DNA of 52,037 bases from the NCBI GenBank assembly GCA_023129165.1, contig JAGMCL010000109.1, positions 1 to 52,037 of the forward strand, written 5' to 3'. Every line of letters starts with the position of its first letter. The first letter of the stretch is position 1. Shown one piece after another: positions 34,118 to 48,436 of this stretch. The notes beneath the pieces were generated by a model that did no database searches, was not told the DNA's origin, and saw only the letters and a program-made list of their open reading frames with translations. The DNA comes from Caldifarciminota bacterium. Its GTDB lineage: Bacteria; Hydrothermota; UBA3073. The translations under genes and the position numbers were made by a program.

Positions 34118-34481
34118 CAGGGAGTAAATTTAATTCTCTGTGTTCTCAAAAAACAAGGACTAAGGTTAACCACAGATAAATAAAAAACTTTGAAGTAAGA
34201 AACAATCAGTGTAAATCAGCATTAATCTGCGTCAGCGAAAATAGAAGTCATCCGTGTTAATCAGCGTCAAAAAAACAGAGAAATATAAGGTAAAGTGATT
34301 AGTCTTATCCGTGAGATTCCGTATCCTTTCCATACAGATTATGTGGAATGGATATTGAGATGTATAAGAGGTCATTCACCCCGTTAGATAGTAAACATCT
34401 AACGGGGCAGGGAGGGGAGGGGCTTTATTACTCTATAATCCTCTGTGCACTCTGTGGTTGATATTTAACACAACGTGTTAA

Positions 34482-43592: not shown

Positions 43593-43911
43593 TAAGAGAG
43601 AATTCAGACAGATAGGTGAGGAGGATGCAAACGGATAAGAAAAGATGCAGACTGAAGACCAGAGACAAGGGGAAAAGGAAAAAGGGAAATTGCCCACGGA
43701 GATCACTGAGTAAAAAGATAATTAAAGAATTATAAACGTTTCGTGTTTTTCGCCTGCCCCGCAGGGAGGAATGACCGTATCGGGGTGTACTTCGTGGGGG
43801 AAAAATTTGTGTAATCGATTTATAATCTGTGAAATCAGAGATTGCTGACTCTTTCAGTAATCTCCAGTTTTTTCTTGACATTCTTCAGGTTTTATGTTAT
43901 AGTTTATTTAT

Positions 43912-45141: not shown

Positions 45142-45240
45142 TTGCCCACGAAGGACACCCCGATATAGTCGTTCCCCATTAAATATTGCTTCGCATTTAA
45201 CGGGATAAACCTCCCTACGGGGCAGGCGGAAATCACTAAA
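45142..45240. repeat. Palindromic element with a second palindromic element nested at 45175-45210
   Basis: CACCCCGATATAGTCGTTC[CCCATTAAATattgcttcgcATTTAACGGGataaac]CTCCCTACGGGGCAGGCGG vs un-nested copy at 46708-46745. Confidence 0.88.
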
Positions 45241-45355: not shown

Positions 45356-45403
45356 GCCCACGGAGTACACCCCGATATAGTCATTCTTCCCTACGGGGCA
45401 GGC
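45356..45403. repeat. 33-bp palindromic insertion (45371-45403) in a repeated intergenic module
   Basis: gcccacggagtacac[cccgatatagtcattcttccctacggggcaggc]tgagttcactgaaaataaag; empty counterpart at 46931-46965. Confidence 0.88.
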
Positions 45404-46694: not shown

Positions 46695-47103
46695 TGGCCC
46701 ACGAAGGACACCCCGATATAGTCGTTCCTCCCTACGGGGCAGGCGGAGATCACTAAATTAAGTAAATAAAAGACAAAGAATAATAGAAGATTAAAAGATG
46801 GCCCACGAAGGAGATAGGGAAATTGCCCACGGAGTACACTAAGTTCACGAAAGATATAAATTAAAAAGAAAAAGAAATAAAAGAATTGTAAGATTTTCGT
46901 GCATTCCGTGAATTTCGTGGGAAAGAGATGGCCCACGGAGTACACTGAGTTCACTGAAAATAAAGAAAAGAAATTTCGTGCATTCCGTGTATTTCGTGGG
47001 GAAAGTTTTTTTGTCTTTAGTGGGGGAAAATTTTCGTGGGCAGTTTTTTCTTGACTTCTTTTAGATTTTATGATATTATTTGTGTAGTAAACTAGATATA
47101 TAT

Positions 47104-48309
47104 ATGTTCGATGTTGCGGTTATAGGAGCTGGACCCATAGGTTGTTACACTGCATACCAACTTGCTGACAAGGGATTTGATGTGCTGTTGTTAGAGGAGG
47201 ATGATGAGGTTGGAAGGAATGTTGTTTGCACCGGAGTAATTGGTAAGGAGGCATTTGAACGATTTAATATTCCTAAAGATTCTATAATTGCCAAGATAAA
47301 TAGACTCCTTTTTGTTTCACCATCTAATATTCACCTTGAGTATATACACCAGGATGAGCTTGCATATGTTGTGAATAGATACAGGTTCGATAAGGGGATT
47401 TTTCAACTGGCATTAAGTAGAGGGGTTGAGGTCAAATTGGGAGAGGGTGTACAAGATATAAGAGAAGAGGGGGATAGGGTCGTATTACAGACAGACAATA
47501 GCATATATAGAGCTAACACTGCTGTTATTGCTACTGGTGTAAACCCCGCACCCTGCCCTACTTCGCGGAGTAAGGCTGGGGAAGGACGAGATGTTATGAG
47601 GTGCGGGGTAAATTACGAGCTACAACGTTCAGCAGGGATGGGAATAGTTAAAAATTTCCTGATGGGGGCGCAGATTAATTTACCTGAATACCGAACATAT
47701 GAAGAGTTATCTACTGCGAATTCAACGGTTGAGATACATACTGGACGGAGGATTGCACCAGGTTCATTTGGGTGGGTTGTGCCATCAAATGGAAGTGTTA
47801 GAGTTGGTGTGATGACTGAGAAAAATCCAAAATATTGGCTAAAGAAATTCATTGAAAATAGATTGAATCAAGTAATTTCTAATGACGATGGATTTAGAGA
47901 GAAACCCATTGCATTTGGTTCCATTGAAAGGAGTGTAAGTGGTAGGATACTTGCAGTAGGAGAGGCTGCTGGACAGGTAAAGACAACAACAGGTGGAGGA
48001 ATATTTTATGGGCTTTTAGGTTCTGAAATAGCAGTGAATATGCTTATAAAAGCTATCAAGACTGGGAATATGGATTATCTTACAGAATATGAGCAGAGAT
48101 GGAGAGGAATGCTCGAGGAAGAGATATTTATGGGATGGCATATAAGAAAGTTGGCTAAGAAAATAGATGATGAGACACTTGATAGGCTATTTAAACGGTT
48201 CAAGAGAGGAAAGTTCCTTGCAATGAGGATAATAAGACGGATAAATTTTGAATATCATGGAGCCCTTTTAGCTTTTTGCCTAAAGGCGTTTGGAGGAATA
48301 ATTAAGTGA
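47104..48309 (+). CDS. FAD-dependent oxidoreductase (geranylgeranyl reductase family) with 23-aa in-frame insertion
   Basis: FDVAVIGAGPIGCYTAYQLADKGFDVLLLEED; AVGEAAGQVKTTTGGGIFYGL; insertion at 47539-47612. Confidence 0.9.
   Translation: MFDVAVIGAGPIGCYTAYQLADKGFDVLLLEEDDEVGRNVVCTGVIGKEAFERFNIPKDSIIAKINRLLFVSPSNIHLEYIHQDELAYVVNRYRFDKGIFQLALSRGVEVKLGEGVQDIREEGDRVVLQTDNSIYRANTAVIATGVNPAPCPTSRSKAGEGRDVMRCGVNYELQRSAGMGIVKNFLMGAQINLPEYRTYEELSTANSTVEIHTGRRIAPGSFGWVVPSNGSVRVGVMTEKNPKYWLKKFIENRLNQVISNDDGFREKPIAFGSIERSVSGRILAVGEAAGQVKTTTGGGIFYGLLGSEIAVNMLIKAIKTGNMDYLTEYEQRWRGMLEEEIFMGWHIRKLAKKIDDETLDRLFKRFKRGKFLAMRIIRRINFEYHGALLAFCLKAFGGIIK
47539..47612. repeat. 69-bp palindromic element inside the FAD oxidoreductase CDS, with direct repeat GTAAA
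   Basis: GTAAA(47539-47543)-CCCCGCACC...GGTGCGGGG-TAAA; GTAAA repeated at 47608-47612. Confidence 0.85.
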
Positions 48310-48310
48310 T

Positions 48311-48436
48311 GATAGACTACAGACAGCAGACCACAGACCGCAGACTACAGACCGCAGACTACAGACCGCAGACTGCAGACTACAGACCACAAACCACAGA
48401 CTACAGACCGCAGACTACAGACCACAGACTAAGGAC
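48311..48436. repeat. Heptamer array B, about 18 x 7 nt (TACAGAC, CGCAGAC, CACAGAC)
   Basis: gatagac tacagac agcagac cacagac cgcagac tacagac cgcagac tacagac cgcagac tgcagac tacagac cacaaac cacagac ... Confidence 0.95.

Follow-up and report, generated by a model that had tools for sequence, protein, structure and literature searches.

The window, that is, the whole 52,037-nucleotide stretch of DNA analysed in this study, carries on its + strand a gene for a FAD-dependent oxidoreductase, and a short palindromic element lies inside the reading frame of this gene. The parts of the locus, preceded by two looser relatives of the element from the same window, are given below.

34374..34412, + strand: looser relative, an intergenic-looking hairpin with the outer ends of the family, TTCACCCCG...CGGGGCAGG, and a different inner stem (19.0 bits with the covariance model R1 described below; sequence)
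45369..45398, + strand: looser relative ACCCCG...CGGGG(CAGG), 33 bp, in a CCCACG repeat (uninterrupted repeat at 46932; filled and empty forms compared by eye)
47104..48309, + strand: host gene, geranylgeranyl-reductase-family FAD oxidoreductase, 401 aa including the insert (TIGR02032 above cut-off; PDB 3oz2; aligned homologues)
47540..47543, no strand: TAAA, 4-bp target-site duplication, left copy (eight of nine exact subfamily copies have flanking 4-bp repeats of this kind)
47544..47608, no strand: 65-bp palindromic element, in frame, coding for the majority of the 23 additional residues (with the duplication included, NPAPCPTSRSKAGEGRDVMRCGV)
47544..47552, no strand: left inverted end CCCCGCACC
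47555..47576, no strand: inner hairpin GCCCTACTTCGCGGAGTAAGGC, unique to the window locus and its orthologue
47600..47608, no strand: right inverted end GGTGCGGGG
47609..47612, no strand: TAAA, right copy of the 4-bp target-site duplication

The two ends form a perfect 9-bp inverted pair, and the 65 bp of the element together with one TAAA (4 bp) amount to 69 bp, or 23 codons without a stop; on the + strand, the frame in use is the only stop-free one. The sequence-only reading had described a 69-bp insert between two GTAAA repeats, in frame in an FAD oxidoreductase. These repeats are present at 47539-47543 and 47608-47612, and the length, the open frame and the enzyme family are borne out, though a 65-bp element between copies of TAAA is the tidier reading of the bounds. 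With its flanking repeats, the element has a GC content of 0.58; the ORF has 0.40 and the window 0.35. Across the 52-kb window, the insert is the sole perfect GC-rich (at least 70% GC) 10-bp inverted repeat spanning no more than 80 bp, and such repeats are expected 0.033 times per dinucleotide-shuffled window (30 shuffles). A structure prediction of the flavoenzyme from a two-sequence alignment gave a mean pLDDT of 30.5 and a pTM of 0.21.

We observed a match to the flavoenzyme protein in 50 of the 60 genomes searched, source genome included, and the window protein was aligned with the best-scoring loci, from 10 of these 50 genomes. All nine homologues aligned from outside the genus, which are 29-46% identical, show a clean 23-residue gap, and the closest of them (46%) reads VLATGINYEL where the window protein reads VIATGVN-insert-YEL. 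The same-genus orthologue, from a sister species and 96% identical, carries the same 23 residues with three changes. Judged from these alignments, the segment is an insertion relative to the homologues; the absence that had been anticipated from sequence is what the alignments display, and no carrier of the segment from outside the genus, let alone from unrelated taxa, appeared among the nine. Between the window and the sister species, the insert has three amino acid changes in 23 codons (dN 0.061, dS 0.124, from few changes) and the rest of the enzyme has 13 in 367 (dN 0.018, dS 0.106, again small numbers). All five nucleotide changes of the insert fall in its interior, and the arms and both TAAA copies are intact.

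During distribution analysis, no second copy of the full element was detected in the source genome, and among 147 genomes of the phylum it was found at the window locus and that of the sister species only. The degenerate core of the inner hairpin was matched in genome_contigs on the sister's contig only (a collection from which records close to the window may be missing), and had 0 matches in viral_contigs. A search of the source genome with the full element also returned five weak partial matches, and because these fall on the arms of other hairpins, the single-copy reading was dropped as the whole story. The search for more copies that the sequence-only reading had proposed thus succeeded for the ends, which belong to a dispersed family, and not for the full element. 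In the window's genome (G000, where the window is contig C12) and in the same-genus sister (G001), CCCCGCAC was counted 46 and 34 times, respectively; its reversed control gave counts of 9 and 11.

For detailed enquiry, a covariance model, R1, was built from 17 copies, which match it by construction; 93% of the cells of their alignment are paired, and the commonest form of the family is TTCACCCCGCACYTATGCATARGTGCGGGGCAGG. With both strands counted, R1 matches numbered 50 in G000, 43 in G001 and 38 in G002, and about 25 distinct sites were recorded in G000 at E <=0.01. The window element itself, which is outside the 17, is matched at 47539-47613 with 25.0 bits. Also outside the model are the CCCCGCAC matches that looked unpaired (C15, C39, C40, C95, C97:756, C125 and C143:4766), C22 and C28, which show a single arm in the stretches viewed, the nested or long copies at C8, C150 and C134:24632, and C29. 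Across the phylum (WOR-3), an R1 match at E <=0.5 was disclosed in 22 of 60 genomes and in none of the other 38; it was present in all five genomes of the family of G000, and strong matches were noticed in G009, G011, G012, G013 and, from another class, G023, with G011 and G023 being the richest.

Two further observations concern the forms that the hairpins take. Intergenic long forms in G000, at C8:4144-4209 and near 24632 of C134, have CCCTCGC...GTGCGGGG ends and the layout of the window element, with a different interior, and share a common inner hairpin CAAGCACCAT...AGTGCTGG. An identical 26-bp element, CCCTCGCACTATAACATAGTGCGGGG, occurs in two classes (C72:316-341 of G023 and C46:17203-17228 of G000), flanked by TTTA repeats in both and otherwise surrounded by different DNA. 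A known RNA family was rejected, the three Rfam matches all being far under their gathering scores. Spread on phages or plasmids likewise found no support, as the 34-nt consensus had no match among plasmids (34 nt being short for the search mode used) and a 27-position degenerate pattern had 0 matches in viral_contigs.

The ORF context was investigated for 24 copies of G000, the window copy included; C20 and C85 of that genome (E about 0.005) and its weaker matches, C57, C110:5573, C100 and C29 of G002, most copies of G001 and nearly all of those in G003-G023 are outside the ORF survey. Most of the copies are dispersed between genes, and at least four in the source genome lie in frame in conserved proteins. 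These four of the 24 are inside ORFs of known protein families, namely the flavoenzyme, a recombinase, PurL and a glycosyltransferase, and a fifth (C23) overlaps a putative ORF of 258 aa; the others lie intergenically, within short putative ORFs or bordering the start of a gene. The frames read differ among the copies, with NPAP...RCGV found twice, KPRT...KVRG once and FTPH...WCGAR once.

The copy in the Xer/integrase-like recombinase, GLRVSEVVNPAPSRCGVKLKSKDID, is common to G000 and G001, and in the three printed PDB alignments it coincides with an exact 9-residue gap in 4a8e, while IntI4 stops there and XerA aligns differently. The PurL copy, which reads KPRTFTKVRG, is part of an insert of 42 bp (14 aa) that carries some flanking sequence along; this insert is present in G000 and G001 and missing in G002-G004 of the same family, which are 82-84% identical over the stretch (8 of the 19 matching genomes were aligned as protein, and G003 as DNA only). 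In G002-G004, this site is a short in-frame repeat (AAATTCG/AAATC type), which looks as though another repeat had earlier been accepted by the same loop. The glycosyltransferase copy, FTPHKSQAWCGAR, corresponds to a gap of 12-13 residues in all three printed PDB homologues; it is also found in G002 and, on this sequence comparison, therefore likely predates the split of the two genera. In G002, 17 of the 21 listed sites were examined, and the glycosyltransferase copy was the only one in frame; one weak match of 21 bits in an ORF was taken as chance, one copy lies at the start of an MnmE-like ORF, and the remaining 14 sites showed no ORF of at least 100 aa. Five further loci (two in G023 and one each in G058, G002 and G011, the G002 locus being a site also listed once more) are outside ORFs of at least 100 aa.

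Evidence of movement came from a hairpin, common to G000 and G002, that lies upstream of a gene judged by eye to be MnmE-like. The exact centre of this hairpin is occupied, in G000, by a 24-bp palindrome, CCCTCGCACCTATTAGGTGCGGGG, and G000 has CATA twice where G002 has it once. Copies can accordingly occupy the centre of other palindromes. An exact subfamily search with CCCTCGCAC-N(2-32)-GTGCGGGG in 10 chosen genomes gave nine copies in four of them. Eight of the nine have a perfect 4-bp direct repeat, never longer, of TTTA (2), TTCA, CATA (4) or TAAA, and the ninth has none; when the right flanks were permuted, a mean of 2.9 in nine was obtained (P 0.0007). These nine copies are not all independent, as they represent six distinct combinations of element and flank, and some members of the CATA group may be copies of a composite. 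GCATA stands on the left in five of the nine, in the middle of another palindrome or close to it. The window copy fits the same 4-bp pattern, as TAAA-65 bp-TAAA, so that the flavoenzyme element has the direct repeat of the other copies. Among the 17 model copies, a perfect 4-bp repeat was seen by eye in two, and the recombinase copy matches at three of four positions; TTCA...CAGG copies are mostly without a 4-bp repeat, as are the PurL and glycosyltransferase copies. No target duplication accompanies the looser 33-bp relative (45369-45398 filled, 46932 empty).

Because of the in-frame copies, the empty orthologues, the filled and empty site and the 4-bp duplications, the insert is very probably a copy of a non-autonomous palindromic mobile element, comparable to a MITE or a Rickettsia palindromic element (RPE), of WOR-3 bacteria. 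The mobile unit is taken to be a hairpin with the ends CCC(T)CGCAC...GTGCGGGG, the shortest form measuring 24-26 bp and the flavoenzyme copy 65 bp. Probably, a putative transposase acting in trans would recognise the short inverted ends and make a 4-bp staggered cut. Insertions into genes would survive only where element and duplication add up to a multiple of three, contain no stop and yield a tolerated peptide, and the open, conserved frames suggest that this peptide would then be made as part of the enzyme. With time, the interior would drift and the arms would stay. In what may be the simplest account, transposition of the CCC(T)CGCAC...GTGCGGGG unit generates the 4-bp duplication, and larger repeats have carried many of the TTCA...CAGG copies along inside them. 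The 47-nt interior of the flavoenzyme element has no relative beyond the sister's copy, and therefore the unit that moved here may not be the short one. As far as sequence can tell, a small part of these proteins appears to be translated from mobile DNA.

A more specific proposal is possible, though somewhat short of probable: a near-perfect palindrome of 24-26 bp, about two fused transposon ends, may itself be the unit that moves in WOR-3 genomes, may duplicate a constant 4 bp of target and, through a preference for palindrome centres, may produce nested hairpins, with core enzymes such as PurL tolerating its copies in the form of translated peptides. If true, this palindrome would rank with the smallest known transposable units, and the Rickettsia type of coding palindrome would have an independent origin.

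Spread by repair or template switching, in which a hairpin is captured at a break, with the 4-bp repeats explained as microhomology or as scars of fill-in, is an unlikely alternative to a transposase, though the likeliest of the rival readings. At 24-26 bp, the shortest units leave very little room for two transposon ends to synapse, the GCATA flanks indicate a preference for the fragile centres of palindromes, and copies are nested in other repeats; on the other hand, a constant 4 bp in all eight copies with a repeat, together with conserved ends, is what would be expected from a transposase. We consider it less likely still that the hairpins are REP sequences moved in single-stranded form by a RAYT (Y1/HUH) transposase. 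Such sequences are likewise short, dispersed and mostly intergenic palindromes, the 33-bp relative lacks a duplication, and Y1_Tnp genes exist in both genomes, with eight matches in G000 and five in G001. Nevertheless, no R1 copy was detected within about 1.5 kb of 10 Y1_Tnp loci examined out of these 13 matches, which leaves RAYT unsupported as the mobiliser; the ends read lack a GTAG or CGTC tag, and 4-bp duplications, which are not known from HUH transposition, are present. This search, which covered Y1_Tnp, yielded no transposase for the element. That the segment is a grown protein loop, palindromic by chance, or a selected RNA hairpin, and not mobile, is hardly credible: its arms are intact in both species of the genus, but so few such repeats are expected in shuffled windows, the same ends are in frame in three unrelated genes as well as between genes, no Rfam family reaches its gathering score, and the dispersed copies largely refute it.

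Among known systems, the Rickettsia palindromic elements (Ogata et al. 2000, 2002) are in-frame selfish palindromes, as excerpts of PMC10969869 and PMC3733652 relate; those first reported are about 150 bp long, and nearly half of the first-reported ones of R. conorii are in proteins (excerpt of PMC10969869). The WOR-3 elements resemble them in behaviour and by description, being palindromic, dispersed, non-coding alone and in frame in unrelated genes. They differ in phylum, in unit length (24-65 bp against about 150 bp) and in the share of copies in known proteins, 4 of 24 in G000 against nearly half in R. conorii as that excerpt has it; 4-bp duplications and nesting in palindromes set them further apart. 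The likeness to Rickettsia suggested by the sequence-only reading thus holds for an in-frame palindromic mobile element open to translation, given the homologues, three further in-frame copies and the target-site duplications, and for behaviour in general, but membership of the Rickettsia families is not supported, most copies being far below about 150 bp.

REPs inside ORFs are recorded for Opitutus, Thauera, Rickettsia and others, and some GTAG/CGTC-tagged REPs within ORFs encode residues (uvrA, recB, others), according to the excerpted text of PMC3733652. As that text describes them, tagged REPs are palindromes of 20-40 bp, mostly between genes with some in ORFs, and in this they are alike; the WOR-3 ends read, in contrast, are TTTA, TTCA, CATA, TAAA, CAGG and the like with no tag, the copies are not beside the Y1 transposases examined, and one subfamily has a target duplication. 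Bacterial MITEs share terminal inverted repeats, lack of own coding capacity and occasional in-frame fusion (excerpt of PMC10969869); their target-site duplication has a 4-bp counterpart in eight of nine exact subfamily copies and the window copy, and none in most TTCA...CAGG copies. The shortest WOR-3 units barely go beyond two ends fused together, and no parental insertion sequence is known for them. Coding palindromes were described as a Rickettsia peculiarity, with REPs in ORFs known in some other bacteria, and a literature search, with most subscription papers outside it, gave no description of such elements in the WOR-3 phylum. A candidate phylum now shows the same behaviour. Here, orthologous sites with and without the insert occur in proteins that are 82-84% identical, and there are 4-bp duplications and palindromes inserted within other palindromes. 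These features make the entry and survival of selfish palindromes in proteins a testable question.

The window also harbors other repeats. Tandem CAGACTACAGACCG units occupy 48310-48430, directly 3' of the flavoenzyme gene. A second dispersed repeat, CCCACG(G/A)AG.ACAC..., occurs at 43693, 45145, 45357, 46698, 46826 and 46932, and in four places it holds an ACCCCG...CGGGGCAGG hairpin of 33 bp or longer at the same position; comparison of 45157-45222 with 46710-46739 displays a further hairpin nested in the ACCCCG...CGGGGCAGG hairpin.
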